Assembly (NCBI GenBank): GCA_017999915.1
Contig: JAGNKX010000016.1
Span: forward strand, 62,001-126,000
DNA: 64,000 nucleotides
From: Spirochaetota bacterium
Lineage (GTDB): Bacteria; Spirochaetota; UBA4802; UBA5550
Direction: 5' to 3'
The notes beneath the pieces are model-generated. The model made no database searches. It saw only the letters and a list, made by a program, of their open reading frames with translations, and was not told the origin of the DNA. Within the stretch, counting starts at the first letter, position 1; each line of letters opens with the position of its first letter. Positions 1,242 to 52,341 of this stretch are shown piece by piece. Made by a program: the position numbers and the translations under genes.

Positions 1242-1478
1242 GGATAGTTATCGGTGATCTGAGGGTGTCAGAGTAACGTCCAGGCCGGGCATCTCGGGGT
1301 CAGAGTAACGGCTAAACCTTATTTTCGGGGTCAGAGCAGTTTCAACGCCGATAGTTATCGGTAAACAAATGTTCAGATTTTCATGGGTCAGAGTAAATGA
1401 TAACTGGATAGTTATCGGTAATATCGGGGGCTGGGCCTCCAATACGATAGTTATCGGTTCTTTAGGGTGTCGGAGCAA
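1242..1478. repeat. Cluster of dispersed palindromes and GTCAGAG motifs
   Basis: Intergenic stretch (418 bp between the genes at 1143 and 1562) containing four copies of the near-palindrome GATAGTTATCGGT (about 1242-1255, 1348-1362, 1406-1419, 1444-1458; the second is the full CCGATAGTTATCGG form). Interleaved are five copies of a second motif, GGGGTCAGAGTAA or a variant (1263-1276, 1296-1308, 1327-1338, 1385-1396, 1465-1478). Both motifs recur at 33.7 kb and 40.1 kb. Spacing is irregular, so this is not a CRISPR array. No promoter or small gene could be picked out with confidence. Confidence 0.85.
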
Positions 1479-1561
1479 AATGCAGCACCCTCGTTCAGGG
1501 GTTTTCACTCTCTGCGATAAAATACTGGACAGGTTCAGCATAATCAATTATACGCGGAAAC

Positions 1562-3265
1562 ATGAAAACACGACATTCAACAACACGATATGCATCCATC
1601 TCTCTCTCCATCTTACTGCTGGTGATCGCGGGGAGCGGTGCCGTGCGGTCGAACGAAAAGAACGTGATACTGAAGCAATTTCCCACGAAGTACCACGTGA
1701 AAATGACCCTGAAGCTCGACAAAAACGCCTATGATTTCTCCGGGGCCGGGGACTTCAGGCTCTACCTGCTCAGCCCCGTGCCGACCACGAACCAGTACCA
1801 CGACGTGGGACTGGTGTCATTCAACAAGGGGAAGCTCATTCCCTTCGACAACGATAACCAGCGCATACTGGTAAACCAGGGAGTAAACAGCCTCCCCGAC
1901 GACATCCAGCTTGAATACGACATCACGGTGTACAGCGTCCATGTAGACTTCAATTCCATCGGCGAAATCTATCCCTACGATAAGACTACCGATGAATACA
2001 GGAAAAACACCCGCGATTACGGCTCCATTGAGATCAACCATCCGAAAATCAAGGAGATGGGGAATTCCCTGCGCAAGACATCGAAGAACGACCTGGAGTA
2101 CGCGCGGAACGCCTTTCAGGCTTTGCAGAAGGCCCTGAAATGGAAAACCACGGGTAAGTACGGGAACCTCACCGACATATTCAACAACCGGGGCGGAGAT
2201 TGCTGGGCCCTCTCCACCGTGTATATCTCCCTGCTGCGCCACCATGGCATCCCGGCCCGGTATGTCACCGGCGGATCGAAAAATGACAAAGCTGAGTTCA
2301 GCGGTCACGTGTGGCCCGAATTCTACCTGGAGCGCTACGGATGGATACCGGTGGACGTGTCCATGACTTCCGCGGTCCCCTATTTCGGCTACTTCAGCGG
2401 AACCCTGATCGGCTTCTACCGCGGCAACGATTTTCTCTACACCCTCGACGGGGTCCAGAGAAAAACCGACGAGGTCCAGACCTGGGGACGTGAGTTCAGG
2501 TGCGGCGGCCGCTGTCCCACGGGAACATATTCCTATAACGCCCGCTTCGATATTACGACTCTGAAGCAATCGAACATAGGGGATGAATACAACAGCGACG
2601 GAAACCGCCGCCGGAGAGCCGCCGCCCTGATGCAGATGGTGAACGCGGAAAGGCGCGGCAGGGGCCTCAAGGAATTCACCAGATCCGAGAACCTGGACAG
2701 TGCGTTAAAGCAGTATATAATCGAAAAAAACGTAAACGGAAGAGAGCCGGACATTTGGAAGGAAATGGCAAAGCAGCACTATGCCACACAGGGGCTATAC
2801 TACCGGTGGAATGCATTATTTGACGCTGACCTTAACCTGGAGCCCTATATACTTAAGGATGTGAAGGATATAAAAGGCCTCTTTGATCCGGCGTTTACCG
2901 AGATAGGCATAGGCTACTTCTACGATCAAAATAAGGGCCTTCATAATTACATGGTTGCACTGACCATTCCCAAGGAACCCTGCGCGATTTCCGCGAAGGA
3001 CCTGGGGGCCGCCCCTGGAGAAACCCTGACTTACGATTGTCCGGCAGGGTGCCGGGGCGGGTCCCTCTGGGGCACCGACACCTACACCGCGGACTCCTCG
3101 ATCTGCGCCGCCGCGCGCCACAGCGGCGTCATCGGCGACAGGGGCGGCCGCGTCAGGATCAAGATCGTCCCCGGCCTGGAATCGTACAGCGGGAGCGAAC
3201 GCAACGGCGTGAGGAGCGAAAGCTGGAAGGCCTTTGAAAAAAGCTTCACCGTGGAAAAGGACTGA
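1562..3265 (+). CDS. Secreted transglutaminase-like / CAP-domain fusion protein
   Basis: A 567-residue exported protein with an N-terminal signal sequence (hydrophobic stretch about 12-28, no lipobox Cys). The central part is a transglutaminase-like cysteine peptidase domain: Cys214 in GGDCWALS, His249 in GHVWPEFY and Asp265 in WIPVDVSM form the expected triad. Residues about 350-470 resemble a CAP/SCP domain (MVNAERRGRGLKEFTRSENL near its start, then FTEIGIGYFYD). The tail (about 475-567) has four cysteines and no family I recognise. Substrate unknown; a role on envelope peptides or proteins is inferred. The gene stands alone behind a repeat cluster and ends 23 bp before a convergent gene. 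There is no clear ribosome site before ATG 1562. Confidence 0.75.
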   Translation: MKTRHSTTRYASISLSILLLVIAGSGAVRSNEKNVILKQFPTKYHVKMTLKLDKNAYDFSGAGDFRLYLLSPVPTTNQYHDVGLVSFNKGKLIPFDNDNQRILVNQGVNSLPDDIQLEYDITVYSVHVDFNSIGEIYPYDKTTDEYRKNTRDYGSIEINHPKIKEMGNSLRKTSKNDLEYARNAFQALQKALKWKTTGKYGNLTDIFNNRGGDCWALSTVYISLLRHHGIPARYVTGGSKNDKAEFSGHVWPEFYLERYGWIPVDVSMTSAVPYFGYFSGTLIGFYRGNDFLYTLDGVQRKTDEVQTWGREFRCGGRCPTGTYSYNARFDITTLKQSNIGDEYNSDGNRRRRAAALMQMVNAERRGRGLKEFTRSENLDSALKQYIIEKNVNGREPDIWKEMAKQHYATQGLYYRWNALFDADLNLEPYILKDVKDIKGLFDPAFTEIGIGYFYDQNKGLHNYMVALTIPKEPCAISAKDLGAAPGETLTYDCPAGCRGGSLWGTDTYTADSSICAAARHSGVIGDRGGRVRIKIVPGLESYSGSERNGVRSESWKAFEKSFTVEKD

Positions 3266-3288
3266 TATCGTCCCGCTCCGGTAAAAGC

Positions 3289-4521
3289 CTACAGAACCTT
3301 CGCCATCGCCCTGCGGACGCGTAATTCGATTTCCGCGATGCCGTCTATATCGATCGTCAGCGAGGGCCTGAACACCACGCTGTTCGCGGCCACCTCGCCC
3401 TGGACCGCCAGGAGACCGATTTTGCGGGCTTCGCGGCAGAACCGCGCCGCCGTGGCATCATCCCTAAACAGGAGCGCCTGCAGCAGGCCTATGCCGCTGA
3501 CGGAAACCTTCCCGTGAGTTCCGGCGGCTATACCGGACAGGGCTGCGTGTAGCTTTTCGCCCATCAGGACCGCGCTCTCCCAGGGCTTCGTCTCCTCGTA
3601 CAGGTCCAGGGCCTTCATGGCGACCCGGCACCCGATGTCGTGCCCGCCGAAGGTGCACATGTGAATCAGGGGGTGCGCGTCAAAAAACTTCCTGGTCTTG
3701 ATGGTAAACATGAGGGCCGTCATGGGGAACACGCCGCCGCTCATGGCTTCACCAAGGATAAGGATGTCCGGCACGATATCGTAATGCTCGTAGGCGAACT
3801 TTTTTCCCGTCCTTCCGAAACCGGTCTGGGTCTCGTCGAATATCAGGAACGCTCCCTTTCTATCGCAGATCCTGCGCAGCTCACGGTAATATTCCGCGCC
3901 GGCCCGGCGGCAGCCATTCTCCGCCTGTACAGGCTCCATGATGACCGCCGCGGTCTTCCGCGAAACGGCCCTCTTCATGGCGCCAATGTCACCGAAGGGG
4001 ACCGTCGCCACCGCGGGAATAAGCGCCCCGAACATTCCCTTACCGGTCCGCTCAGACAGGGTTACCGCGAAGCCGGTCTGCCCGTACCATCCTCCGTCGA
4101 CCGTTACAAGCTCCGGCCGGCCGGTGTGTCCCCGGGCAAGCTTGCAGGCGGCATCGACCGGCTCGCCGCGCACCACCGTGTACAGGACCGACTCCAGGTT
4201 CCCGGGAACAAACCGGGCAAGTTTCTGACCGAGAAGCGCCTTCTCCTCGGAAAGCATGATGAAATTGCCCTGGTCGACCTTCCGGACCGAGGCCTCCAAC
4301 TCCGAGCGCAGCTCTTCGTTATTGCGCCCCAGGTTGTAGATCCCGGCCGAGGTGTAGCAATCGATATAGCTCTTCCCGTCGGTATCGCACAGGATGACGC
4401 CCGCCCTTTCTCCTTCAAGTACATCAAGGCCTTTTTCGGCAAGGGCCGCCACCAGGCCCTTCGAGAAAACCTGCTCGGCCGTTCTCATCAGTGATTGTTT
4501 ATTAACACGTTTCACATTCAT
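3289..4521 (-). CDS. Class III aminotransferase-like protein lacking the PLP lysine
   Basis: A 410-residue fold-type I aminotransferase class III homologue. The start chosen is ATG 4521 (NVKRVNKQSLMRTAEQ), behind AGGAG; the open frame extends further upstream but without support. FDETQTGFGRTGK retains the pyridine-binding Asp. In the segment that should carry the Schiff-base lysine, the sequence reads ILGEAMSGGVFP: codon GAA gives Glu258 where the neighbouring paralogue has Lys266 (VAKSIGGGVYP). The phosphate-binding loop is also altered (VVRGEPVDA against AGSGADAIE) and YHGHS is WYGQT. It is therefore likely to be catalytically dead or repurposed. It lies 14 bp downstream of the intact paralogue in one operon, suggesting a heteromeric partner or regulatory subunit (inference). 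Confidence 0.85.
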   Translation of the reverse strand: MNVKRVNKQSLMRTAEQVFSKGLVAALAEKGLDVLEGERAGVILCDTDGKSYIDCYTSAGIYNLGRNNEELRSELEASVRKVDQGNFIMLSEEKALLGQKLARFVPGNLESVLYTVVRGEPVDAACKLARGHTGRPELVTVDGGWYGQTGFAVTLSERTGKGMFGALIPAVATVPFGDIGAMKRAVSRKTAAVIMEPVQAENGCRRAGAEYYRELRRICDRKGAFLIFDETQTGFGRTGKKFAYEHYDIVPDILILGEAMSGGVFPMTALMFTIKTRKFFDAHPLIHMCTFGGHDIGCRVAMKALDLYEETKPWESAVLMGEKLHAALSGIAAGTHGKVSVSGIGLLQALLFRDDATAARFCREARKIGLLAVQGEVAANSVVFRPSLTIDIDGIAEIELRVRRAMAKVL

Positions 4522-4535
4522 TGCATGGCTCCTTT

Positions 4536-5921
4536 TTATGAGAATAACTCTTCGAGATCCCTCAGGAAATTGAACGCCTTTATCTGAACATGCATGTTGT
4601 CGAGCATCATCCTGATGAACGGGATTCTCGCCATGGGGAAAAAGATCACCAGGTACGGTTTCATCCTCCTCACCGCCTTGCGTATCCGCACCAGGAGGTC
4701 CTCGATCTCCTCCATGGTGACCATGATCGGGATCTGAAAGCGCATGACCTGGGGGGCGTTCCCGGAAAAGACCGCCCATACCCCTTCCCGCGCGAGGCAG
4801 TCCGCCATGAGAGCGCCGATAAATTCGTACTGATATTCAACGCCGATCATCAGGCCCTGGCCGCGGACCTCCTTCACGATCCTGGGGTTCTCGCTGGTGA
4901 TCTCGTTCAGTCCATCCTTGAACCGCTTGCCGGCCCGCGCCGCGTTTTCCCAAACTTTGTTTTCTACCAGGTAATCGATGACCTTCGAGGATACGCGGCA
5001 CCCGAGGTCCGTGCCCCCGCCCGAGGACACGTGGAAAAACGGGTTCTTGTTCACAAAACCGGTCAGGAGCGGGATATCGCGGTAGACAAGCGCGGCGTTC
5101 GGGTATACGCCGCCGCCTATCGACTTGGCCACCATCATGATGTCGGGCACGACGCCGGAGTGCTCGGAGCCCCAGAACTTCCCGGTACGGCAGAACCCGG
5201 TCTGCACCTCGTCGAAGAGCAGCATGATCCCGAGATCATCGCAGAGCCCACGCAGTCCCCTGAGATATTCGGCGGTCGCCACGTGGATCCCCCCCTCCCC
5301 CTGCACCGGCTCGAGAATGATCGCGGCCGTGTTCCGCGACGCTACCTTCTTCACCTCGCCGAGGTCGCCATGATGGACAAACCTGAAATCGGGCATGAGG
5401 GGCCGGAACATTTCCTTGTAATAGTCCTTGCCGTTCGCCGAAAGGGTAAAGCCGGAATGGCCGTGATAGGCCTTATCCATCGAGATGATCTCTTTCCGTC
5501 CGGTGGCGCCAAGGGCGAGCTTGAGGGCGCCCTCTATGGCGTCGGCCCCGCTGCCGGCATAGAGCATTTTATTCAGGTCGCCCGGGCAGATCGAAACCAG
5601 CTTTTTGGCGAATTCTATCTTCTCGGGGGAGAGCAGGAGCGCGCTCCCCATGTCATACTCCCTGGCGGCGCCGGCGAGCTCTTCGATGACATACGGGTTT
5701 CCCCTGCCGACGTTAAAGCATCCGGCGGAGGAAAACGCGTCGATGATCGGCCTTCCGGTCTCTTTTTCGATGAATTTGATCCCCGACCTGCGGTCCTCGT
5801 GCATGTCAAGGTGCGCGCATCTCAGATAGCGGACCTGTCCGTGCGAGATGTGCCTGCCGAACAGCTTCAGCTTTGCTTCCTTTTCAGCCCTGTTCTTCTT
5901 TTTGTATTCACGAAGGCTCAT
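4536..5921 (-). CDS. Class III PLP-dependent aminotransferase
   Basis: A 461-residue class III aminotransferase (ornithine/acetylornithine/GABA transaminase superfamily); the substrate cannot be assigned. Visible motifs: AGSGADAIEGALKLA, the Tyr-His-Gly-His motif, EPVQGEGG, FDEVQTGFCRTGK (pyridine-binding Asp) and MMVAKSIGGGVYPN with PLP lysine Lys266. I start at ATG 5921 (SLREYKKKNRAEKE), placed correctly behind GAGGAGG; ATGs 9 and 15 bp upstream lie within or before that ribosome site. The C-terminal 45 residues (MKPYLVIFFPMARIPFIRM onward) exceed the usual family end. It leads the operon with the lysine-less paralogue at 3289-4521, and has its own promoter and TetR-type operator at 6023-6070. 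Confidence 0.88.
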   Translation of the reverse strand: MSLREYKKKNRAEKEAKLKLFGRHISHGQVRYLRCAHLDMHEDRRSGIKFIEKETGRPIIDAFSSAGCFNVGRGNPYVIEELAGAAREYDMGSALLLSPEKIEFAKKLVSICPGDLNKMLYAGSGADAIEGALKLALGATGRKEIISMDKAYHGHSGFTLSANGKDYYKEMFRPLMPDFRFVHHGDLGEVKKVASRNTAAIILEPVQGEGGIHVATAEYLRGLRGLCDDLGIMLLFDEVQTGFCRTGKFWGSEHSGVVPDIMMVAKSIGGGVYPNAALVYRDIPLLTGFVNKNPFFHVSSGGGTDLGCRVSSKVIDYLVENKVWENAARAGKRFKDGLNEITSENPRIVKEVRGQGLMIGVEYQYEFIGALMADCLAREGVWAVFSGNAPQVMRFQIPIMVTMEEIEDLLVRIRKAVRRMKPYLVIFFPMARIPFIRMMLDNMHVQIKAFNFLRDLEELFS

Positions 5922-6022
5922 CGGCATCCTCCTCATTATGATGATTTAAATACGGCTTCTGCGGTGTTCGAGATAGATCGCGGCGCCGGACCCGTCCGGA
6001 ATGCGGGCCGGCAAGATATTTT

Positions 6023-6042
6023 TTAGTTAGTCATCCAACTAA
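6023..6042. promoter_or_regulatory. TetR-type operator, aminotransferase side
   Basis: TTAGTTAGTCATCCAACTAA, an inverted repeat with TTAGTT/AACTAA arms. It matches 19 of 20 bases with the reverse complement of 6868-6887 on the other side of tetR. It lies directly downstream of the minus-strand -10 box, over the expected transcription start, where a bound repressor would block the aminotransferase operon. Confidence 0.8.
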
Positions 6043-6070
6043 TTTATAGCAGGACATCGCCGGAGGTCAA
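6043..6070 (-). promoter_or_regulatory. Sigma70-type promoter of the aminotransferase operon
   Basis: On the minus strand, TTGACC (6070-6065) and TATAAA (6048-6043) are separated by 16 bp, a near-consensus promoter reading into the aminotransferase genes. The operator begins on the base following the -10 box. Confidence 0.65.
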
Positions 6071-6230
6071 TATCTTTTTCTATCTTCCCGGTTTTTTTCA
6101 TTTGCTTTTCTTTATTTTTATTCTTTTCTTGACTATTTGTTTGCGATACGCGACAGAATGGATATATTAATAGCACAGAACCGCCGCCCGGAACACACCA
6201 TCGCTGGCGCGGCGGAACAAGGTGACGGCC

Positions 6231-6830
6231 ATGCCCCGGAAAAGCGTTCAGGAAGAGAGGCGGATACAGATTTACAAGGCGCTCACGAGATGCCTTCTTA
6301 AAAAATCATTCAGCGAAACATCCATCAAGGATATAGCGAAGACGGCCGGCGTCAACCACGGGGTCCTCCACTATTACTTCAAGAACAAGGAAGACATCTT
6401 GCTGAACTATATCGATTGGGTCGTGGTGCACTATCACGACATGTACCAGGAGTGGGTTGATTCGCACAGCAGGCGGAAGATCGACAAGAAGGCGTATTTG
6501 CGGGACTTCGCCGAGTTCATGATGGACCGCCTCTCCCTCGACGACACCCTGTCGCGCGTGTTCGTCGAGATATGGGAGATCGCCATGTACAATAAAAAGG
6601 TGCGCCTCAAGCTCCAGAACCTCTACCGGGAATGGTTCCGAACAATCAAGCAGGTGATCGACCATTCTTTTCCCCGTTCCGCCGAGGCCAAAAAAATCAG
6701 CCTTCTGCTCGTGCCTTTCAGCGAAGGCATGTCGCTCTTCTCGGTTCTGATGCCCAAGGACGAGATCAACCCGAAGGAACTCATGATGTGGATGCTCAAT
6801 CTCATTATTGGCGTGATGAACAAGGAATGA
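6231..6830 (+). CDS. TetR family transcriptional regulator
   Basis: A 199-residue TetR repressor. The helix-turn-helix lies at residues about 20-55: FSETSIKDIAKTAGVNHGVL followed by HYYFKNKEDILLNY, typical for the family. The remaining helical part is the ligand/dimer domain (BetI/AcrR-like); the ligand is unknown. Start ATG 6231 follows AAGGTGA; an in-frame GTG at 6222 is less likely. It is divergent from the aminotransferase operon and upstream of the transhydrogenase operon; an almost identical 20-bp palindrome sits at each flank, so it probably controls both neighbours. A possible promoter for tetR itself is TTGCGA (6141) and TATATT (6163). Confidence 0.92.
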   Translation: MPRKSVQEERRIQIYKALTRCLLKKSFSETSIKDIAKTAGVNHGVLHYYFKNKEDILLNYIDWVVVHYHDMYQEWVDSHSRRKIDKKAYLRDFAEFMMDRLSLDDTLSRVFVEIWEIAMYNKKVRLKLQNLYREWFRTIKQVIDHSFPRSAEAKKISLLLVPFSEGMSLFSVLMPKDEINPKELMMWMLNLIIGVMNKE

Positions 6831-6845
6831 ATGCATAAAAATGTA

Positions 6846-6894
6846 TTGACAAACCGGACCATATAGTTTAGTTGGTTGACTAACTAAACTATAT
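6846..6894 (+). promoter_or_regulatory. Promoter and TetR-type operator of the transhydrogenase operon
   Basis: A large palindrome at 6861-6894 with perfect 13-bp arms (ATATAGTTTAGTT / AACTAAACTATAT) around an 8-bp centre. Its core, TTAGTTGGTTGACTAACTAA (6868-6887), is the reverse complement of the operator at 6023-6042 with one mismatch. A consensus -35 box TTGACA (6846-6851) stands 16 bp before TTAGTT, so the operator would cover the -10 region. Location between tetR and pntAA implies control of the latter. Confidence 0.78.
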
Positions 6895-6946
6895 GGAACC
6901 GCGCCGTTCGTTTCCAAGCGTCGATTCTCAAGCAAGGAGCGTGCGT

Positions 6947-8125
6947 ATGAACTTTAAAGGCCTGATCGTAGGGATACCAAAAGAGATCATGGAACATGAA
7001 TTCAGGGTGGCGGCCATCCCCGACACCGTGAAAAAGCTCGTCGCCCAGGACGCCCGGGTGGTGATCGAGTCGGGGGCCGGCGCCGGCGCTCACTTCTCCG
7101 ACGATGAATACCGGTCGGCTGGCGCGGAGATAGAGCCCGATTGCGAAAAAATCTATGCCGCGGCGGACATCATACTGAAAGTCAAGGAGCCCGTCTTCAA
7201 CGAGGCCAGGGGCCGGCACGAGGTCTCCATGATGAGGAAGGGCCAGGTCCTCATCAGCTTTCTCCACCCCGCGTCGCCGGTCAACCACCGGATGATCCGC
7301 GACCTCGCAAAGCAGGGCGTCACCGGGCTCACCCTCGACGGCATACCGCGGATAACGCGCGCCCAGGCCATGGACGCGCTCACCTCCATGAGCACCGTGG
7401 CGGGATATAAGAGCATCATCATGGCCGCCGGGGTCTTTACCCGGTTCCTCCCCATGATCGGCACCGCGGTCGGCGTGATACAGCCGGCCCAGGTCTTCGT
7501 GATCGGCGCCGGCGTTGCCGGTCTCCAGGCCATCGCCACCGCCAAGCGGCTCGGCGCCGTCGTTACCGCCGCGGACGTGCGGCCCGACGCCATCGAGCAG
7601 GCGAGGAGCCTGGGCGTGAAGGTGGTCGAAACCGGTGTTCCCCCCGAGGTCGCCATCGGCCGCGGCGGCTACGCCCAGCACCTGTCCGACGAATGGATCT
7701 CGAAGGAGCGGCAGGCGATCCGCGAGGCGGTGGCCGCATCCGATATCCTCATCCTCACCGCCCTCGTGCCGGGAAGGATCGCGCCCATGCTGGTGACAGG
7801 GGACATGGTAAAATCCATGCGTCCCGGCTCCGTGATTGTCGACATCTCCATCGACCAGGGAGGCAACTGCGAGCTGACGAAGTTCGGCGAGACCGCGGTG
7901 GAGCACGGCGTCACCATCTTCGGCACAAAGAACATCCCGGGCTCCGTGCCGACGAGCTCCACCTGGATGTTCGCGAACAACATACTCAATTTCGTGCAGT
8001 ACGTCGTAAAAGACGGCGCCATCAGCCTCGACCGCTCGGACGAGATCATCGCGTCGTCTCTCACAGCCATCGACGGGGAGATCGTGCACGCGGGCGCCCT
8101 CGAGGCGATGGCCGAAGTAAAGTAA
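6947..8125 (+). CDS. pntAA: NAD(P) transhydrogenase subunit alpha part 1 (dI, NAD-binding)
   Basis: A 392-residue soluble domain I of proton-translocating transhydrogenase, which binds NAD(H) and transfers hydride to NADP+ bound by PntB. The N-terminus GLIVGIPKEIMEHEFRVAAI and the Rossmann segment VFVIGAGVAGLQAIATAKRL are diagnostic of the AlaDH/PntA family. The length is that of split PntAA forms rather than fused PntA. Start ATG 6947 (NFKGLIVGIP) follows AAGGAG; an upstream in-frame ATG at 6893 lies inside the operator palindrome and is rejected. First gene of pntAA-pntAB-pntB, with the TetR operator just upstream. The operon would set NADPH/NADH balance at the inner membrane. Confidence 0.95.
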   Translation: MNFKGLIVGIPKEIMEHEFRVAAIPDTVKKLVAQDARVVIESGAGAGAHFSDDEYRSAGAEIEPDCEKIYAAADIILKVKEPVFNEARGRHEVSMMRKGQVLISFLHPASPVNHRMIRDLAKQGVTGLTLDGIPRITRAQAMDALTSMSTVAGYKSIIMAAGVFTRFLPMIGTAVGVIQPAQVFVIGAGVAGLQAIATAKRLGAVVTAADVRPDAIEQARSLGVKVVETGVPPEVAIGRGGYAQHLSDEWISKERQAIREAVAASDILILTALVPGRIAPMLVTGDMVKSMRPGSVIVDISIDQGGNCELTKFGETAVEHGVTIFGTKNIPGSVPTSSTWMFANNILNFVQYVVKDGAISLDRSDEIIASSLTAIDGEIVHAGALEAMAEVK

Positions 8126-8179
8126 CGCGGAAATGCCGGAACGGTTCCGCGTGAAAACCATACGACCGGAGGAAGTCCC

Positions 8180-8458: not shown

Positions 8459-8562
8459 AATACACCGCGGCACGGCTCCGGGGTTTGCGCGCGCTGCGAA
8501 CGAACCGGACGCCCGATAACGGCGGGCCCGCCCGGTAGAGGCAGTATCACAAGGAGGACAGG

Positions 8563-9960: not shown

Positions 9961-9972
9961 TCGTGGAAGTAT

Positions 9973-33642: not shown

Positions 33643-33689
33643 AATGATAATTATGTATAGAAATTATGGGCCTCAACTTCTTCTGGAAC

Positions 33690-33892
33690 AGATAGTTATC
33701 GGTTCAGCGATACTTATCAGTTACTCTGACCCCTGAGGATATTCTATCTCCATCAATATCCGATAGTTATCGGATCTTTGCAGAAGAAGAGTTGCTCTGA
33801 CACCTGATTGGCACCGATAGTTATCGGTCAAATACAACAGATCAGATAACTCCTGGATCTTTCAGAGGTTATAATGTACCGATAACTATCGG
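33690..33892. repeat. Second cluster of palindromes and GTCAGAG motifs
   Basis: In the 267-bp gap between 33642 and 33910: GATAGTTATCGGT (33690-33703), a variant GCGATACTTATCAG (33707-33720), CCGATAGTTATCGG (33760-33773), ACCGATAGTTATCGGT (33813-33828) and ACCGATAACTATCGG (33878-33892). The second motif is here inverted: TTACTCTGACCCC (33721-33733) and TTGCTCTGACACC (33792-33804). Mirrors the cluster at 1.24-1.48 kb in opposite orientation. Confidence 0.88.
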
Positions 33893-33909
33893 CACATTCG
33901 CAATAAAGT

Positions 33910-34401
33910 CTATCTTGCCTCAACCCTTTTTTTCAACAAAGCATTCATCTCCCTGAAACCCTCCAGGGTCGAATCCAGGTTTATAAAAGGGACAAGGATC
34001 CCATTAAAGTCTTCTTTTTGAATGAACTTGGTTTTACCATTTTCTAACCTGACAAGGTGAAAGATATGCCTGCCGGTAAAAAGTCCCGGGATAAATAATT
34101 TCCCTTCCCATTGGACAGTGCTTTTTTCATCGTATCTTATTAGCGTAGGATTGAAGTCCACCGGTTTGTGCCCTTTGGGCTGGATGGTAATCTGAATTGA
34201 GCCGCCTGTTTTCATCTCACCGGAAACTTTTCTTATAAAAGGATTCCACCGGGGATATTCAGGAAAATCGGCAAATTCTTTCCATACCTTATCCACCGGG
34301 GCGTTGATGATTATATCCGTATAGAGACTCTTCTTCCCAATGACCAGGAGAACGATGATCACTAACATTACCGACACAATAACCAAAATGGCTTTTTTCA
34401 T
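33910..34401 (-). CDS. Membrane-anchored SRPBCC (START-like) protein
   Basis: A 163-residue protein: single N-terminal membrane helix (KKAILVIVSVMLVIIVLLVI) and an SRPBCC/polyketide cyclase-like domain (IIINAPVDKVWKEFADFPEY, then PRWNPFIRKVSG; FIQKEDFNGILVPF). This fold binds hydrophobic ligands. Start ATG 34401 behind GGGGAGGGG. The gene is bracketed by copies of the palindrome (33878-33892 and 34435-34449, both followed by CACAT), as though gene plus flanks form a cassette. Ligand unknown. Confidence 0.8.
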   Translation of the reverse strand: MKKAILVIVSVMLVIIVLLVIGKKSLYTDIIINAPVDKVWKEFADFPEYPRWNPFIRKVSGEMKTGGSIQITIQPKGHKPVDFNPTLIRYDEKSTVQWEGKLFIPGLFTGRHIFHLVRLENGKTKFIQKEDFNGILVPFINLDSTLEGFREMNALLKKRVEAR

Positions 34402-34434
34402 GACATACCCCTCCCCTTGAAAAAAATATATAAT

Positions 34435-34449
34435 ACCGATAACTATCGG
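34435..34449. repeat. Dispersed palindrome copy
   Basis: ACCGATAACTATCGG followed by CACAT; the same 20-nt context TACCGATAACTATCGGCACA occurs at 33877, on the other side of the SRPBCC gene. Confidence 0.85.
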
Positions 34450-34478
34450 CACATGAATCAACTATCCCATACTTCCTT

Positions 34479-40071: not shown

Positions 40072-40087
40072 ACCGATAGTTATCGGT
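40072..40087. repeat. Dispersed palindrome copy
   Basis: Full 16-bp form ACCGATAGTTATCGGT, 23 bp after the stop of the first S15 hydrolase; the second S15 gene has the same sequence at the same distance (44204-44219). Confidence 0.9.
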
Positions 40088-40160: not shown

Positions 40161-40190
40161 GGTGTCAGAGTAAAAAAGGGGTCAGAGCAA
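40161..40190. repeat. Two GTCAGAG motifs
   Basis: GGTGTCAGAGTAA (40161-40173) and GGGGTCAGAGCAA (40178-40190) in direct orientation, as in the cluster at 1.26-1.48 kb. Confidence 0.8.
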
Positions 40191-41227: not shown

Positions 41228-41243
41228 ACCGATAACTATCGCT
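41228..41243. repeat. Dispersed palindrome copy
   Basis: ACCGATAACTATCGCT, one changed arm base, 15 bp after the hydrolase stop. Confidence 0.8.
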
Positions 41244-44181: not shown

Positions 44182-44203
44182 CCGGCAGATAGTATTCCAA
44201 ATA

Positions 44204-44219
44204 ACCGATAGTTATCGGT
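44204..44219. repeat. Dispersed palindrome copy
   Basis: ACCGATAGTTATCGGT, identical to 40072-40087 and at the same 23-bp distance from its gene's stop. Confidence 0.9.
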
Positions 44220-44228
44220 AGCAACTGC

Positions 44229-44261: not shown

Positions 44262-44444
44262 GTCATGAAATAATAATGCCGAATACAAGCCGCTGCGGCT
44301 AATTCACGGCCAATTTTTTATTGACACCACATTCAGTTACATTGCACAAATAATAGGGGGACCATAAAGTCAAGATAGGATATGCCCATATCGTATCGAA
44401 CTATTTGACCCGGCGTAATACATTTTCCAGAGATTGCATCCATT

Positions 44445-45575: not shown

Positions 45576-45855
45576 TCTTGCAGGAACTCCCATGTTTAAC
45601 CTTAACCACACGTCCATACGTTAGCGATGATCATGGCGATGACAAGCACCGGTAATGCAAATTTAGTTTGACAATTGGGCCGGAATACATTTAAAAAGTA
45701 GTAAAATACAACAATCATGATGCGAAAAAGACTTGCCGGTCATATTATTTCGAAGAAACACGCTGCTGCAATGTTAAAACGGGCGCGATTATATTTTATT
45801 CCTATAATAATGGATATTAATGCCTTTCAGGCGTTAAATATTATCTCAGGAGGAA
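45576..45855. other. Intergenic region without recognised feature
   Basis: About 280 bp, AT-rich. An open frame from 45717 overlaps the next gene out of frame and looks like a shadow. A likely promoter for 45856 lies here but no clear boxes were found. Confidence 0.35.
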
Positions 45856-46632
45856 ATGATGCTGCAAAAAAACATACTGGCAATAGCATGGGTGGCGCTA
45901 ACGCTATTCACGGCATCAAGAGCAATGGCCTTCGGCATTGGCGCCTATGCCACTGTTGGCGGAGGAGGATCTACCTATAAAACAACCACAGAGGATTACC
46001 TGCCGAACATCACCGGCACCTCATCTGATCTGACCGCAGGAGCCGGATTGATACTGGATACCACCCTTGCCCAGGACAGCCTCTTCAACTACCGCCTCAA
46101 AATAGGCGGCGGCAGGAATTGGATCGACAGGGAAAAACATATTATATTAGCACGGCTGCAGATGAGCAATATTTTTGGCTTTGGTATAATTCGGACCGAT
46201 ATTATCCGGTGGTGGATTGGCCCCCAGTTAGGCGGGACCTACTCGTGGGGGGATCGGGGCAAAAGAAATTATGCGGGTATTGCCAAAGAATCATCGGAAT
46301 ACCAGGCATTGCGGTATGGCGTCTTTTCAATCAATGATATAAACCTGCTCGCCCCGTACCATGACACTATCAGAGAAATTAATTACGGTGGGCTCAACGT
46401 GGGTCTTTCCACCGGCCTCAACATTAACATCGGCAGTCTTTTTACAATATCACTTGAAACAGGCTTCAAATATAATCTGAACTGGGGCAATCAACAACGA
46501 AAAATTTACGAAACTTTGTGGCCGCTCTATGAAATAAATCACTTCACCGAAAACCTTTTTGTCCATGGCTGGGAGCTATACGGAGAAATTGCCTTCCTAT
46601 TCCGGATTCCCGGCGACAACTACAGGGGGTAG
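45856..46632 (+). CDS. Outer-membrane beta-barrel protein (predicted)
   Basis: A 258-residue exported protein. Signal peptide cleaves near SRAMAFG. The mature part alternates hydrophobic and polar residues with many Gly/Tyr/Trp (YATVGGGGSTYKTTTED; IGPQLGGTYSWGDRG; GLNVGLSTGLNINIGSLFTI) and ends YGEIAFLFRIPGDNYRG, consistent with a small outer-membrane barrel. AGGAGG precedes ATG 45856. No family recognised. Downstream of the membrane AraC regulator. Confidence 0.7.
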   Translation: MMLQKNILAIAWVALTLFTASRAMAFGIGAYATVGGGGSTYKTTTEDYLPNITGTSSDLTAGAGLILDTTLAQDSLFNYRLKIGGGRNWIDREKHIILARLQMSNIFGFGIIRTDIIRWWIGPQLGGTYSWGDRGKRNYAGIAKESSEYQALRYGVFSINDINLLAPYHDTIREINYGGLNVGLSTGLNINIGSLFTISLETGFKYNLNWGNQQRKIYETLWPLYEINHFTENLFVHGWELYGEIAFLFRIPGDNYRG

Positions 46633-46680
46633 CGAGGGAAGATCCGGGAACTGACTTTTATGCGTATCTGAGCTATCCGA

Positions 46681-47664
46681 CTACCAGATAAACATCAGCG
46701 GATCGATGTCCCAGCCGTGCTTCATGACCGTGAAATGCAGGTGCGGGCCCGTCGACCAGCCGGTGGATCCGACCCTGCCGATCATGTCCTTCTTCGTGAC
46801 CCATTCGCCGCATTTCACGTTGATGGAATCCAGATGCCCATAGAGAGTGGTATATCCCTCGTAGTGCTGGACCATGATGGTATTCCCGAAGCCGCCGCGC
46901 CAGCCGGTGAAGATAACGATCCCGTCCCGGGCCGGATGCACGGGAGTGCGCCAGCCCGAAATAATGTCTACGCCGTTATGGTAGCGCATCTCCCCGTCCT
47001 GCATGAACGGGTGGACCCTGTCGCCGAAAAGCGAGGTGAAATTTCCCCGCGCTATGGGCGATTGGAAAATATTCTTGATCCGGTATAATTTTTCCAGGGA
47101 GTTGTTCACGATCATGGGCTTCACGCCCTTGAAGAAGACAAGCCTGATATCGTCGGACGAGATTATTTTAAAGGGCGTGGGCAGGTAATCGCCCCGCACC
47201 TCTCCGCTGTATGCCAGGAGATTCCGCATGCGCCGCACGTCCAGAAGATCGTCAAAGGCAAGAAGGACGCCGTCTGATGCGGGCACCACCACCTCGATGC
47301 CGTCCTTCGGCACGAGGGACGTTATGAAGGGATTTGCCGCAATAAGGGTGTCGATGTTGACGTGATATTGATAGGCCACATCCCAGTATGACTCGCCTCC
47401 GGCGAGGCGGTGCGTTATGAGCCTGACGCCGGCGTTGTGGGGATAGCGCTTGACCATGCGTATATATTCTTTCGCGTCGATGAAGAGCGGAAAACCGTTC
47501 TTGAGCACATAGCTTCCCTTCTTGACCGTGACGTGATCGCACACCAGTGCTGCGATGATGTTCCCCAGGACAAGGACGGAAACGAGAACGATCCCCCCGA
47601 TCGTGGAATAGAATTTAATCTGACGTACCTGATACCTGCTGAAAGGCGGCCAGTGTAACATCAC
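46681..47664 (-). CDS. Membrane-anchored LysM-M23 peptidase
   Basis: A 327-residue protein: one N-terminal membrane helix (about 20-42), a LysM-like segment (about 85-125, HRLAGGESYWDVAYQYHVNI, then DTLIAANP) and a LytM/M23 domain (about 200-320). Zinc ligands are in YHNGVDIISG (His, Asp) and GPHLHFTVM (HxH), with YGHLDSI supplying the catalytic His. All residues are in place, so an active endopeptidase on cell-wall cross-links is expected. Overlaps the proC stop by 4 bp (ATGA) and ends the operon yggS-proC-m23. Confidence 0.9.
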   Translation of the reverse strand: MMLHWPPFSRYQVRQIKFYSTIGGIVLVSVLVLGNIIAALVCDHVTVKKGSYVLKNGFPLFIDAKEYIRMVKRYPHNAGVRLITHRLAGGESYWDVAYQYHVNIDTLIAANPFITSLVPKDGIEVVVPASDGVLLAFDDLLDVRRMRNLLAYSGEVRGDYLPTPFKIISSDDIRLVFFKGVKPMIVNNSLEKLYRIKNIFQSPIARGNFTSLFGDRVHPFMQDGEMRYHNGVDIISGWRTPVHPARDGIVIFTGWRGGFGNTIMVQHYEGYTTLYGHLDSINVKCGEWVTKKDMIGRVGSTGWSTGPHLHFTVMKHGWDIDPLMFIW

Positions 47665-48479
47665 TTTTCTCCTAATCGTTGAGATTTTTGGGCTGCTTTT
47701 TCAACGGCATCCATGACGATACCGGAAAAGCCGCTCCGCTCCAGGACGTGGATCCCCTCGATGGTGGTGCCGCCGGGCGAAGTCACCTTCCCCCGCAGCG
47801 CCATGGGATCTTCCCCGCTCTCCAGAAGGTACCTGGCTGAGCCCATCACCGTCTGCGCGGCAAGGACAAGGGCCTTGTCGCGGGGAATGCCGAGCTTTAC
47901 GCCGCCATCGGCCAGCGCCTGGATGAACGTGAACACATAGGCCGGGCCGCTGCCCGACAGGCCCGTTACCGCATCCATGAGCTTCTCCGGCAGGACCAGG
48001 ACCCTGCCAATCGCCGAAAATATTCGCTCCACTTCAATCAGCGAATTTTCATCCACGCTGTCGTTAGGCGACAGGACCGACATCCCCTCCCCCACCATGG
48101 CCGGCGTATTGGGCATCACCCTAACGATCTTACGCGACGGACCCACGATCTTTTCCATTGCCGTTATGGAAATGCCGGCGGCGATGGAAACGATAATACA
48201 ATCGGCAGCGATTGCGCCCTTTATGGCATCAAGTGACGCCGCGACCGTGTCGGGCTTCACCGCGATTATCAGTATCTCCGACGCACGGGCCAGTTCTTCC
48301 GGCGACTTCGCGGCGTTTATGCCGGTGCCATGCGCCAGGGCTTCAGCCTTGGCCGCTGCAATATCATAAACCGAAAGGGAGGATGGATCGCCTGCGGCGG
48401 CAAGGCGGGACAGGATCGCCCCGCCCATGTTGCCCGCTCCGATGCATCCAATCCTTCGTGTAGCTGTTGTCATTCTCAA
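47661..48479 (-). CDS. proC: Pyrroline-5-carboxylate reductase
   Basis: A 272-residue ProC, the last step of proline synthesis (NAD(P)H). Rossmann motif GCIGAGNMGGAILSRLA at the N-terminus; active site region GSGPAYVFTFIQALADGGVK and SPGGTTIEGIHVLE at the C-terminus are canonical. Start overlaps the yggS stop by 4 bp; stop overlaps the M23 start by 4 bp. Confidence 0.96.
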   Translation of the reverse strand: MRMTTATRRIGCIGAGNMGGAILSRLAAAGDPSSLSVYDIAAAKAEALAHGTGINAAKSPEELARASEILIIAVKPDTVAASLDAIKGAIAADCIIVSIAAGISITAMEKIVGPSRKIVRVMPNTPAMVGEGMSVLSPNDSVDENSLIEVERIFSAIGRVLVLPEKLMDAVTGLSGSGPAYVFTFIQALADGGVKLGIPRDKALVLAAQTVMGSARYLLESGEDPMALRGKVTSPGGTTIEGIHVLERSGFSGIVMDAVEKAAQKSQRLGEK

Positions 48480-49156
48480 TCCCTGTGTCCGAAAATTGCC
48501 GTTCCGATCCGCACCATCGTCGCTCCCTCTTCCACGGCAATGCGATAATCAGAGGACATTCCCATGGAAAGCTCTTCAAGGGAAATGTCGAGGGAGTCGT
48601 TGATGTCCTCCATGAGCTCCCGCGCAGCCTTGAAAGTTTCCCGGATGACGCCCTCATCGTCGGTGAAAGGCGCCATGGTCATCACTCCCCTCAGTTCGAG
48701 GTTCTTCATGTCCAGGATGCGCTTCACCAGGTCCGTCGCGTCAGCGGGACCTGTCCCGCTTTTGCTTTCCTCTCCGGAGGTGTTCACCTGGACCAGTACT
48801 TTCTGTATCTTGCCTGTCCTGGCCGCCTCCCGGTCCACTGCCGCCGCGGTATCGGCCTTGTCAATGGAATGGATCAGGTCAAAGAGCAAAACGGCGTCTC
48901 GGGCCTTGTTCGACTGGAGGTGCCCGATCATGTGAAATGCGAATTCGCCTTTCAGGTTCGGGATCTTCCGCTTGGCCTCCTGGATCTTATTTTCGCCGAA
49001 CACCCTGATCCCCGCGTTTATGGCCTCCTGCACGACCGATTCATCGAAAGTTTTACTAACGCATATTATGCGAGTTCCCCGGGGATCCCTTCCGGATGAC
49101 GCGGCAATATCCGCAATCTCCGCTTCAATCCTCTTATAGTTCTCGATAATACTCAT
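48476..49156 (-). CDS. yggS: YggS family PLP homeostasis protein
   Basis: A 226-residue fold-type III PLP-binding protein that buffers pyridoxal phosphate. The PLP lysine is in ICVSKTFDE; GENKIQEA, FHMIGHLQSNKA and SMGMSSDYRIAVEEGATMVR (ending VRIGTAIFGHRD) are signature motifs. Linked to proC, as in many bacteria. No ribosome site visible before ATG 49156; it begins the three-gene operon. Confidence 0.95.
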   Translation of the reverse strand: MSIIENYKRIEAEIADIAASSGRDPRGTRIICVSKTFDESVVQEAINAGIRVFGENKIQEAKRKIPNLKGEFAFHMIGHLQSNKARDAVLLFDLIHSIDKADTAAAVDREAARTGKIQKVLVQVNTSGEESKSGTGPADATDLVKRILDMKNLELRGVMTMAPFTDDEGVIRETFKAARELMEDINDSLDISLEELSMGMSSDYRIAVEEGATMVRIGTAIFGHRD

Positions 49157-49328
49157 TAATCTATATCATTCCGCTGCGCGGGTCCGCGCAGCCTTCAGGT
49201 TATCGCGGTCTGATATCCGCCCGACCGGGCGGATAAAAAATACACGACCACAATTATTAATCTTGTATACCATACATCAAACTAAAATGCAAGCCTTTTT
49301 ATTTCCTGTTCACACAGTGCCTATCATG

Positions 49329-50288
49329 CTACATCTTACCCAACAAATCCAGATCAAGGGGCTCTCCTTTCTCCGGATCCTTCCTCAGACGAATTCCATC
49401 CATGGCGCAGGAATCCTGACATACGCCACACCCCATGCAGAACTTATTATCCACAGCCACCCTGCCGGCGGATTCATCCATCGTGATGGCGTTGAAGGGG
49501 CATATGTCAACACAATTCCCGCAGGCGGTGCATCCCTCTTTCACTTCGGCGACATAGCCCGACGGTGCGAGAAACGGCACGGCTCCCTTCAGCTTATTCC
49601 ACATGACCATGCCCATGCAGCAGCAACTGCAACAGTTGCATATGGCTATGAGGCGGTTTCCCATTTCCTTTTTAAAATATGCCGTATGGACATCGCCCCT
49701 GGCATGGGCCTTTTCGAGCACCACCAGGGCTTCTTCCCTGGAGCATTTCCTGAAGCGCGGGTTGTTCGCCGCGATGAAGGACGCGAAGGGGTCACCCATT
49801 ATCAGGCACGCCTCCATTTCCGATTCCGGAACGCAGGGATTGGTCTGGTTTTGCCTGCATGCGCAGATGCCCACGGCCATGGCTCCGGGATTCTCAAGGA
49901 TGACATCGCGGGCGATCTTGAAGGGAACAACCCGCTCCGGCACGCGATAGCTCACCGGCACATCAAGCGAAACCAGCTTGCGAGCGTCCTCATGCTTTAC
50001 CACCTTCCCATGGTAAATGTTGGTCTCCCTGTCGGGAGCGAGCATCGCGATCTGCTTCACATAGGACCTGAGCATGGCGTCGACCGTTGGGCCGGGATGG
50101 TTTTTCGGCTCGGCCGTGGGGATGCCCAGGGTTTGCAGCACAGTGTATGCGAAATGATCCGTGTGCTTGAGGTACAAATAAGCAATGAAAAAATTCTGCT
50201 TATCCTCCGGGGAATAGAAATCGAACATATCATCAACAGTCTTATCCAGCATGGCAGTCTCCAGGTAATACGTATAGTTATCGTTCAT
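49329..50288 (-). CDS. Dicluster ferredoxin-like protein with cysteine-rich region
   Basis: A 319-residue protein. C-terminal 4Fe-4S dicluster (about 245-300): CTACGNCVDICPFNAI and CMGCGVCQDSCAMDGIRL. Upstream lies an unusual cysteine-rich region: GICACRQNQTNPC near 145 and AICNCCSCCCMGM near 220, which could bind another metal cluster. The N-terminal ~100 residues (YTYYLETAMLDKTVDDMFDF) have no fold I recognise. It resembles ferredoxin proteins seen with organohalide or corrinoid systems only loosely. Monocistronic; function unknown, electron transfer inferred. Confidence 0.75.
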   Translation of the reverse strand: MNDNYTYYLETAMLDKTVDDMFDFYSPEDKQNFFIAYLYLKHTDHFAYTVLQTLGIPTAEPKNHPGPTVDAMLRSYVKQIAMLAPDRETNIYHGKVVKHEDARKLVSLDVPVSYRVPERVVPFKIARDVILENPGAMAVGICACRQNQTNPCVPESEMEACLIMGDPFASFIAANNPRFRKCSREEALVVLEKAHARGDVHTAYFKKEMGNRLIAICNCCSCCCMGMVMWNKLKGAVPFLAPSGYVAEVKEGCTACGNCVDICPFNAITMDESAGRVAVDNKFCMGCGVCQDSCAMDGIRLRKDPEKGEPLDLDLLGKM

Positions 50289-50485
50289 GCTTTATGTATA
50301 TCTGCATGATGAACCCAAATATCCATCTTTTTGTTTTTTATTCAAGGACAATTCATTTAGTCGTTTCCAGCGGACCAGGGAAAGCATGGTGCAAATAATT
50401 GTAGTTGCGATATATGTATTGACGGATTATTATCGAATGATTTAACCTGTGATTCTGAAAACAATTGTCACATACAAGGATCTCC

Positions 50486-50875
50486 ATGCATCTGGGCATA
50501 CATTATCTGGCTGAATTCTTTGACTGTGATCGGAAAAAGATCGATGATGCGGCATTTGTTGAAAAGGTCATGATAGAAGCGACAAATCTCTCGAGCGCCA
50601 CGATCATCCGGCCCTTTTTCCATCAGTTCAGTCCACAGGGAGTAAGTGGCGTGATAGTTATCGCCGAATCCCATTTCGCGATTCACACCTGGCCGGAACA
50701 TGGCTATACGGCCGTCGATCTATTCAGCTGCTCTGATTTTGACTACAAGGCTGCATTAAATCATATCCGGATAACTATTGGGGCGAAACATTATACCGTG
50801 GGACAGGTCCGTCGGGGAATACTTGCCGATAGTGGTGTTGCTATGCCGGCGGAATGGGACGATATTGATTTGTAA
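50486..50875 (+). CDS. speD: S-adenosylmethionine decarboxylase proenzyme
   Basis: A 129-residue class 1 AdoMetDC. Autocleavage occurs at Glu-Ser: VIVIAESHFAIHTWPEHGYT, with Ser62 becoming the pyruvoyl group. GYTAVDLFSCSDFD is also typical. It makes decarboxylated SAM for spermidine. No speE is in view. Start ATG 50486 (HLGIHYLAEFFDC) behind AGGAT; a longer in-frame start at 50465 has poorer support. The following gene starts 93 bp after, across a palindrome copy. Confidence 0.93.
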   Translation: MHLGIHYLAEFFDCDRKKIDDAAFVEKVMIEATNLSSATIIRPFFHQFSPQGVSGVIVIAESHFAIHTWPEHGYTAVDLFSCSDFDYKAALNHIRITIGAKHYTVGQVRRGILADSGVAMPAEWDDIDL

Positions 50876-50931
50876 ATAAAGACTAAATATGGCTACCACA
50901 TAAGCTTGGTGAAATACTAATACGATAGTTA

Positions 50932-50946
50932 TCGGTTTAATGTTGA
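50932..50946. repeat. Dispersed palindrome copy
   Basis: ACGATAGTTATCGGT, 22 bp before the start of the next gene, so potentially able to block its transcription or translation. Confidence 0.8.
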
Positions 50947-50968
50947 GGTCTGTTCTAGGTGGTAAACA

Positions 50969-51754
50969 ATGTCATTAAAGTTAGCATTCCTTGGCACAGG
51001 AACCTGCAACTCCACACCGCGCAATCCATCGGCCCTGGCACTTTCAGACGGAAATGAGATTCTTCTGATTGACTGCGGCGGCGGGTGCTATCACCAGTTA
51101 GCCAGACTGAATGATAATCATTTCAGATATAATACTATCAGCACTATACTGCTCACGCATTTTCATATTGATCATGTATCGGGTCTTGCTGATATCCTGT
51201 GGGGTGAAATGTGGGATAAACGAAGCCAGAGAATCGAACCGATAACTATCGCAGGGCCACCGGGACTTGTCCGATTTATGAATAATCATATTCTTCCTTT
51301 AATTGGGAATTATTCAATACCCTTCAAGATTATTTCGATAGATCTTGAAGATGGAGCGATATTCAAAGGATCATATTTCTCTGCACAATCATTCAAGGTG
51401 GTGCATGGTGATGCTGCATGCGGTTATCTTATCGATACCGGTATCAAAAAACTCGCCATTACCGGCGATACTGGTTTTTGTGACAACCTGGTTAATCTCT
51501 TATCAGCTTCTGATATTGCTGTCATGGAATGGAGCATGGCAGATTATTGCGATCATCCTTCGCATATTTCCCGGACTGATATTGAACGACTTCTCAATCT
51601 TAAAATTTTTCCATCAAAAACTTATTTTACCCATATCTACCCCTCCCCTGGAACATCTTTCTATGAACAGGTTCGGTTCAATAGAAAAATTTTGAATGGA
51701 TATAAAAAATCATTCTTTTTCCCACAGGATTTGGAGACGACAATTATCGATTGA
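50969..51754 (+). CDS. RNase Z-like metallo-beta-lactamase protein
   Basis: A 261-residue MBL-fold protein of the RNase Z/Lactamase_B_2 group: LAFLGTGTCNSTPRNPSAL, then the HxHxDH motif in LLTHFHIDHVSG, HGDAACGYLID (metal His) and ITGDTGFCDNL (bridging Asp), ending YFTHIYPSP. tRNA 3' processing is not certain; closely related proteins act on small phosphodiesters. Inside the gene, codons for EPITIAG contain ACCGATAACTATCGC (51238-51252), a match to the dispersed palindrome. The stop abuts the convergent gene at 51755. Confidence 0.85.
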   Translation: MSLKLAFLGTGTCNSTPRNPSALALSDGNEILLIDCGGGCYHQLARLNDNHFRYNTISTILLTHFHIDHVSGLADILWGEMWDKRSQRIEPITIAGPPGLVRFMNNHILPLIGNYSIPFKIISIDLEDGAIFKGSYFSAQSFKVVHGDAACGYLIDTGIKKLAITGDTGFCDNLVNLLSASDIAVMEWSMADYCDHPSHISRTDIERLLNLKIFPSKTYFTHIYPSPGTSFYEQVRFNRKILNGYKKSFFFPQDLETTIID

Positions 51755-52246
51755 TCAACTGCCGCGCAATGGAACGTTATTATTTACAGGCAACAGCAAA
51801 CCAGAAATCGCATGCGAACCTCGTGGCATACCCCAATATTGTGCCCAGCAAATAACCCCACCCATCTCAAATCTTGAAAAGATATAACATGAAAATCGAT
51901 AGTTATCATTTTTCATGTTCTTAATATCTAGCAGTTTAACAATATATATCTCAACAGCATATGCAATAATCCCCGAAGCTGACAACTTATACACCTTTCT
52001 CATATCAAGAAGCAATTCATATTCCGCAGGGGAAAGTGTAACATGCACACGTTTCCACCTTTCTTTCCTGTCACGATCCTGATAGCGAACCCTTGAAAAG
52101 GGTACGGCAGAGATCAAATCTGCTCCGGCCATTTTACAAATCAACCATGATATAATTTCACGCCTGGATAAACAGGTTTTCCGGGATATATCAGCTATCT
52201 TTCTCAAGGTATTAACATGGATATAGATGGTTGTATCAATAAACAT
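51755..52246 (-). CDS. Probable ribbon-helix-helix-like protein with repeat in coding sequence
   Basis: About 163 residues from ATG 52246 (FIDTTIYIHVNTLRKIADIS). A short strand then two helices (TCLSRREIISWLICKMAGAD) and a second similar block (RVHVTLSPAEYELLLDMRKV, YKLSASGIIAYAVEIYIVKL) suggest two ribbon-helix-helix-like or CopG-like units. The last ~50 residues (after KNMKNDNYRF) contain a copy of the palindrome within a long hairpin (51886-51919) and look like an added tail. AT-rich composition unlike the neighbours suggests transfer. It could bind the dispersed palindrome (speculation). The start is uncertain. Confidence 0.5.
   Translation of the reverse strand: MFIDTTIYIHVNTLRKIADISRKTCLSRREIISWLICKMAGADLISAVPFSRVRYQDRDRKERWKRVHVTLSPAEYELLLDMRKVYKLSASGIIAYAVEIYIVKLLDIKNMKNDNYRFSCYIFSRFEMGGVICWAQYWGMPRGSHAISGLLLPVNNNVPLRGS
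51886..51919. repeat. Palindrome copy in a long hairpin, within coding sequence
   Basis: Arms AACATGAAAA (51886-51895) / TTTTCATGTT (51910-51919) enclose TCGATAGTTATCA, a palindrome variant. It lies inside the gene at 51755-52246, where it could act as an internal terminator. Confidence 0.7.
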
Positions 52247-52329
52247 ATGCACTCTCGAAAATATCGATATATATCCAGGTATACGATTATCCTGAAAGAT
52301 TATTAAAATTTTTTTCATTATATTCAGCC

Positions 52330-52341
52330 CCGATAACTATC
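52330..52341. repeat. Partial palindrome copy upstream of adk
   Basis: CCGATAACTATC, lacking the last arm bases, in the gap between the helix-rich protein and adk. Confidence 0.55.

Follow-up and report, generated by a model that had tools for sequence, protein, structure and literature searches.

A 14-bp word, CCGATARYTATCGG, recurs through a 64,000-nucleotide stretch of the genome of a Spirochaetota bacterium (assembly GCA_017999915.1, contig JAGNKX010000016.1, positions 62,001 to 126,000; hereafter the window), and we read it as the putative site of a sequence-specific DNA-binding protein that is kept by selection, with some copying linked to RAYTs (transposases associated with repetitive extragenic palindromes, REPs) on top, a reading to which we give a probability of about one half. 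An initial annotation of the window had described the word as a dispersed near-palindrome and had offered three explanations, namely a site bound by a nucleoid protein or global regulator, a target or remnant of a mobile element, and RNA-processing hairpins at gene ends. The first of these is the best supported, as the word appears to be selected in place, copies inside genes included; the second holds in part, and the third is the weakest.

All 16 places listed for the word in the window carry it, seven exactly, six with one change, two with two changes and one (51896) with three, although the site given as 50932 really lies at 50922-50935 (Table 1). Allowing up to three mismatches, the window contains 26 matches, against a mean of 9.89 (standard deviation 3.07, largest 18) in 100 dinucleotide-preserving shuffles, which bears out the claim that the word is too frequent for chance; many of the three-mismatch matches are probably chance nonetheless, because the shuffles themselves average 9.89. 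A region described as free of copies proved nearly so, the sole match between 1458 and 29274 having three changes (25694). In the whole genome (G000; 5,455,362 bases in 29 contigs, the window being C16:62001-126000) there are 130 exact copies and none of the pattern read backwards, and the central AC or GT noted in the window is found in 129 of the 130 (57 + 72). On contigs C1-C14 alone the copies fall into at least 51 clusters, which, together with copies at the matching positions of a sister species, rules out one recent duplication as their source.

The unit is the asymmetric sequence NNGATAGTTATCGGT and not a plain hairpin, because its two halves are unequally conserved. Over 153 copies from this genome (107 exact and 46 with one change), G7 and T9 are present in all 153 and G13 and G14 in 152 each, with weaker conservation at C1 (137), C2 (142) and A6 (142); read with GT at the centre, the word hardly changes in its right half, GTTATCGG, and varies at the two leading Cs and at base six. 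The flanking base counts of these copies contain neither a GTAG nor a CGTC foot, and their sole outlier is a T at +1 (128/153). The sequence GTTATCGGT occurs 136 times in 337 kb of loci, themselves selected for the word, where about 2.6 would be expected by chance. Copies are found in both orientations and occur singly, clustered, or in arrays of 8, 15 and 16 with a period of 21-22 bp, the spacers being similar within one array and different between arrays. Same-strand neighbours in this genome follow a 10.5-bp periodicity (n = 45, R 0.63, 0 of 4000 random sets as good), as do those spaced more than 45 bp apart (n = 17, 8 of 4000) and, over all spacings, those of other genomes (n = 35, 2 of 4000). 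No target-site duplication was seen around single copies by eye, an inspection made with no statistic.

The statement that nearly all copies are intergenic is true of the window; over the whole genome, genes contain 12 of the 59 clusters of exact copies that were examined, and the other 47 lie between genes. These clusters were drawn from 100 of the 129 listed copies together with the window, a sample that covers about four fifths of the copies (those on contigs up to C15 and the window's), and genes were called with our own codon-usage script, not a published gene finder, which missed some AT-rich open reading frames (ORFs). Synonymous-codon shuffling of 463 kb of the genome's genes, a sample that itself contained one exact word, yielded five exact words in 300 replicates (0.017 per replicate) and predicts about 0.17 gene copies in 4.7 Mb of coding DNA, compared with the 12 known. 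The peptides encoded are P-I-V/T-I-G or D-N/S-Y-R. Half of the gene copies (6/12) were compared with proteins of solved structure; one protein, presumably MoxR-like, had no solved relative, and in four of the other five (KARI, thiolase, RimO and MurF) the word stretch aligns gap-free to relatives that have other residues there. As these gap-free alignments lie in the cores of old enzymes, the four copies were written into existing codons, by substitution and not by insertion.

Comparison with the sister species (genome G003, with 38 clusters that comprise 47 exact AC/GT copies) indicates that the word often stays at its position. The word stands at the orthologous place in G000 for 19 of the 38 clusters, six of them exact gene copies in sequence of 73-90% identity and the others in spacers, often with a different number or orientation of copies in the two genomes; the fair figure is 19/38 and not 19 of the 22 that were readable, because our own loci had been chosen for having the word. 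Six of the 12 gene copies of G000 are exact in G003, in which only 9.0% of 39,536 aligned 14-mers are identical (P = 0.0003). The 16-copy array corresponds to two copies with the same flanks in G003 and to none in the matching spacers of G001 and G005, and the 15-copy array to two copies in G003 and to several, plus copies of a second repeat (the tag, below), in G005. Since arrays shrink to few copies at matching places in the sister genomes, the sites hold their places even as the number of copies drifts.

The word is abundant in five of the six examined genomes of the genus, the 15-mer CCGATAGTTATCGGT numbering 111 copies in G000, 25 in G001, 1 in G002, 39 in G003, 74 in G004 and 53 in G005. 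Beyond the genus it is absent from 13 of 14 genomes of the family's other genera (G015 has 6), and 17 of 46 genomes of the order hold any copy, among them G020 with 13 and G035 with 10. A high count in G029 (20) was rejected as enrichment, the fetched copies sitting in one repeated coding sequence; the ends of its contigs (L326-L336) bear this multi-copy sequence, which happens to contain the word. Some copies in G021, G025, G035 and G037 likewise seem to lie in coding sequence, and the enrichment beyond the genus is therefore smaller than the raw counts suggest. A scan of the genome collection for close pairs of the pattern returned at least 119 stretches, of which, among the matches listed, 108 were from Bacteroidota, 10 from Spirochaetes and 1 from Roizmanbacteria; the pair pattern matched no viral contig, and carriage of the word by viruses was discarded.

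The distribution along the chromosome is also uneven. Contig C1 (965 kb), whose GC skew changes sign near 592 kb, from negative to positive, where dnaA, dnaN, recF, gyrB, gyrA, mnmG and rsmG are located, has no exact copy: none of the 51 clusters of C1-C14 falls on it where 11.5 would be expected (P = 2e-6), and the clusters are uneven among the remaining contigs too (13 of 20,000 simulations). We found no copy with zero or one change in 308 kb of C1, and small samples of this kind say little, because 192 kb of other randomly placed stretches were also nearly word-free (no exact and one one-change copy). These results bear on an uptake-type sequence, comparable to the DNA uptake sequences (DUS) and uptake signal sequences (USS), which would build up through a preference for imported or repaired DNA that contains it, entering genes by substitution and staying on both strands. 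Such a sequence would account for the codon-level gene copies, both orientations, the conservation in the sister and the species-specific copy number, but we consider it unlikely in view of the total of only about 130 copies, the long tandem arrays and the absence from C1.

The main rival to a selected protein site is a mobile repeat like REPs or miniature inverted-repeat transposable elements (MITEs), in which a RAYT (Y1 HuH transposase) would spread units that have the word as their palindrome, with the tag GGGGTCAGAG replacing GTAG. The tag was recognized as a second repeat, GGGGTCAGAGYAA, with 45 exact copies in the genome. At least two tags (within one change) stand at three of the six Y1 transposase loci of this genome and at 18 of 30 RAYT-type Y1 loci of relatives, against 3 of 300 random 3.3-kb pieces of its own genome; next to the RAYT gene, direct copies of the tag often stand at intervals of about 30-43 bp, and in two loci of relatives (L085 and L102) word and tag alternate in 43-bp tandem units. 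The placement after stops, the stop codons that the word supplies, the arrays and the patchy occurrence are REP-like as well. An exact word was found at none of the 36 Y1_Tnp loci (6 own and 30 of relatives), however, and a copy with one or two changes at only 4 of the 30; in addition, insertion could not have produced the gene copies that sit in protein cores aligned without gaps, orthologous positions are kept at 73-90% identity, and many arrays and single copies have no tag. A RAYT gene beside the word is not supported either by a profile built from 12 RAYTs, which, over the fetched loci, gave only weak matches in those that bear the word (L130, L053 and L098, E 3e-11 to 1e-6). The mobile-element option is partly supported, through the link of the tag to word-bearing spacers and RAYT loci, and we regard the mobile repeat as a doubtful account of the whole; our reading is that host sites and a RAYT system meet in the same spacers, with some joint copying. 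The tag GGGGTCAGAG(Y) is found beside RAYT-type Y1 transposase genes throughout the order (L018-L020, L163-L185), and may be of interest in its own right as a RAYT tag common to an order with a foot that is neither GTAG nor CGTC.

Several observations weigh against a protein site kept by selection. The tag occurs in 24 of 41 word-bearing spacers and in 7 of 117 without the word (4 of 56 of those longer than 200 bp), and the word lies within 30 bp of the gene 3' end at 19 of 41 such ends (null mean 9.8, largest of 2000 17). Sixteen of 207 core copies, in this and sister genomes, run on into a second dyad, TRAACNNNNGTTYA (for example at window 1348), most of them with tags near, and this longer shared sequence (the TRAAC dyad) suggests that longer units were copied; the composite resembles the SOS box of Gram-positive bacteria. 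The fifth gene copy compared with a solved relative (ceramidase-like) has a four-residue alignment gap at the word, 3 of the 22 readable G000 counterparts of G003 clusters are without the word (16 of the 38 could not be judged), and other genomes have no phasing at spacings above 45 bp (n = 16, 2163 of 4000 random sets as good). Copy number spans 1 (G002) to 111 (G000) inside one genus, alongside the near absence from the family's other genera. The word is not alone in avoiding C1, where the tag is rare too (1 of 30 against 6.8 expected), and long contigs favour repeat-poor DNA. No binder was identified, six ParB_N-like matches in the genome, one of them a 289-aa ParB, having no link to the word; a TetR-family regulator gene (L036:2073-2717) that carries the word in its own coding sequence, exact also in G003, is a candidate binder and a lead only. 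Insertion alone misfits the gene copies and the kept places, and a core function alone misfits a range of 1 to 111 copies in one genus.

Placement relative to genes bears on two further explanations. An operator of a large classical regulon, under a repressor or an activator, would find support in the 16-copy array, which starts by a TTGACC-type promoter-like stretch and ends 32 bases before a namZ-like gene; one gene copy, too, lies within a TetR-family gene. Of the 5' ends adjoining word-bearing spacers, though, only 3 of 47 have the word within 30 bp (null 5.6), as against the 19 of 41 3' ends, and the types of spacer are distributed as in the background (29 tandem, 9 divergent, 7 convergent and 2 at stretch edges, compared with 100, 35 and 23 tandem, divergent and convergent), convergent spacers being as common as there. 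Pfam names obtained for 18 of 20 scanned neighbouring or word-bearing proteins also have no common theme, and an operator of this kind seems improbable. A hairpin in RNA at transcript ends, acting in processing, stability or termination, would fit the proximity to gene ends, where some genes terminate within the word, which offers TAA or TAG in one frame. The sites do crowd gene ends, but they do so in both orientations, with unequal arms and asymmetric conservation, and pairing is not carried on into the flanks (0.43 and 0.20 at positions 1 and 2). Downstream of the copies at 40073 and 44205 there are, as judged by eye, terminator-like hairpins distinct from the word, and no Rfam match was found in the window. 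We therefore consider an RNA hairpin very improbable. The 16-copy array itself (L025:5385-5724; sister place G003:C91) lies between the promoter-like stretch and a NamZ-type muramidase gene.

In our preferred reading of the word as a selected protein site, it would be a double-stranded recognition site with the core 5'-GATAGTTATCGGT-3', usually preceded by CC. Selection would maintain sites, alone or in clusters, across most of the chromosome, in genes too, where they would be spelled with existing codons; neighbours about two helical turns (or a multiple) apart would allow adjacent proteins to occupy the same face of the helix. Slippage may locally extend some clusters to arrays of up to 16, and some copies may travel within mosaics of the RAYT-linked tag. 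A chromosome-organising or address role would fit better than a regulon, because the sites are independent of promoters, placed after stops and absent from the origin contig, and have no regulon theme. This is the bold part of the proposal, and possibly correct; its grounds are C1, the placement of the sites and the absence of a regulon. In its full form, a spirochaete chromosome-address system of some 70 or more clusters of an asymmetric 13-15-bp site, clear of about 1 Mb around oriC, bound side by side by a protein, taking the part that MatP/matS or Noc play elsewhere and sometimes carried by RAYT-tag mosaics, it is a tentative suggestion that we would not expect to hold in every part. Should the word be a protein site at fixed places, it would to our knowledge, from a search that was not exhaustive, be the first dispersed chromosome-address motif of spirochaetes, and one bait oligonucleotide could pull out the binder; should it be a mobile repeat, its presence in genes without insertion would be left unexplained by every REP model.

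Table 1. Copies of the word and of the tag in the window.
Position	Strand	Feature
1241..1254	+	Word, one change (CGGATAGTTATCGG)
1264..1478	+	Five copies of GGGGTCAGAGYAA or near it (1264, 1296, 1327, 1384, 1466) among word copies
1348..1361	+	Word, exact, then second dyad TAAACNNNNGTTCA (composite subfamily)
1405..1418	+	Word, two changes, core GATAGTTATCGGT intact
1444..1457	+	Word, one change
33689..33702	+	Word, one change
33721..33804	-	Two GGGGTCAGAGYAA tag copies (33721-33733, 33792-33804)
33760..33773	+	Word, exact
33814..33827	+	Word, exact
33879..33892	-	Word, exact; one-change copy at the aligned place in sister genome G003
34436..34449	-	Word, exact; with the 33879 copy, brackets an ORF missing from the G003 spacer
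40073..40086	+	Word, exact, 24 bases past the stop of a Peptidase_S15 gene
40161..40190	+	Two GGGGTCAGAGYAA tag copies (40161-40173, 40178-40190)
41229..41242	-	Word, one change, just past a predicted gene end (41212)
44205..44218	+	Word, exact, 24 bases past the stop of a second Peptidase_S15 gene; copy in the aligned G003 spacer
50922..50935	+	Word, one change
51239..51252	-	Word, one change, within ORF 50969-51754 (metallo-beta-lactamase fold)
51896..51909	+	Weak copy, three changes, core GATAGTTATC kept
52330..52343	-	Word, two changes, core GATAGTTATCGG intact

Two groups of copies in the window are worth describing individually. Those at 40073 and 44205, each after one of two tandem peptidase paralogues, may have a single shared origin. 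The ORF between the direct copies at 33879-34449 (33910-34461, with a likelier ATG inside) encodes a Polyketide_cyc2 protein; an integron-like 557-bp "cassette" made up of this ORF and the direct copies was considered and dropped, being one case only.

The Bacteroidota stretches returned by the close-pair scan contain many copies of another palindrome, TCCCGATAGCTATCGGGA (L037-L155, 108 among the matches listed), which like the word has CCGATA/TATCGG arms and is repeated in many genomes. Its centre is GC in 230 of 295 copies, compared with GT or AC in 100 of 101 copies of the word from our own genome, and its outer two base pairs co-vary: the flanks pair in 95% and 94% of copies at positions 1 and 2 (0.95 and 0.94, against the values given above for the word) though their letters vary, and to judge from these sequences it is therefore a hairpin kept by structure. 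The Bacteroidota palindrome is probably unrelated to the spirochaete word. Copies lie within tandem copies of tRNA-Asn (and tRNA-Met-like) genes (L077:4684-5431, L066, L067, L086, L087, L093), including a predicted 97-nt tRNA-Asn that contains the palindrome (L077:4813-4909), and no paper with its core was found in the open-licence part of PubMed Central (PMC).

The word has several close counterparts among known systems. Like matS, the site of MatP in the Ter macrodomain of Escherichia coli (13 bp, 23 copies in 800 kb; PMC3330122), it is a short near-palindrome at scattered sites that are not tied to promoters, over what may likewise be a limited part of the chromosome; unlike matS, it has about 130 copies, forms tandem arrays, is very patchy within its genus and is found in Spirochaetes. 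Its absence from the 965-kb oriC contig and its uneven spread over the other, unordered contigs may correspond to the regional confinement of matS. Noc, which acts in nucleoid occlusion, has palindromic sites at about 70 separate places over most of the Bacillus subtilis chromosome (PMC4331003); these are absent from the terminus region, whereas the word is absent from the origin contig. REPs of the GTAG/CGTC families with their RAYTs are, like the word, dispersed palindromes that mostly lie just past gene ends, sometimes provide a stop codon and sometimes form arrays (PMC3733652, PMC6006769), but the word has no GTAG/CGTC foot and no exact copy beside a Y1 gene, its positions are often kept in the sister species, and its gene copies arose, as far as the alignments indicate, by substitution. 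DUS and USS, with hundreds to thousands of copies (PMC2346458), share with the word a non-random occurrence in genes (by substitution) and spacers on both strands; the word differs in its fewer copies, its arrays and its absence from the origin contig. Open-licence PMC yielded no paper containing CCGATAGCTATCGG, CCGATAGTTATCGG or CCGATAACTATCGG, nor a spirochaete paper on such a repeat. Taken together, a dispersed chromosomal address would be of a known kind, and the sequence of the word and the lineage that carries it appear new relative to the papers searched.

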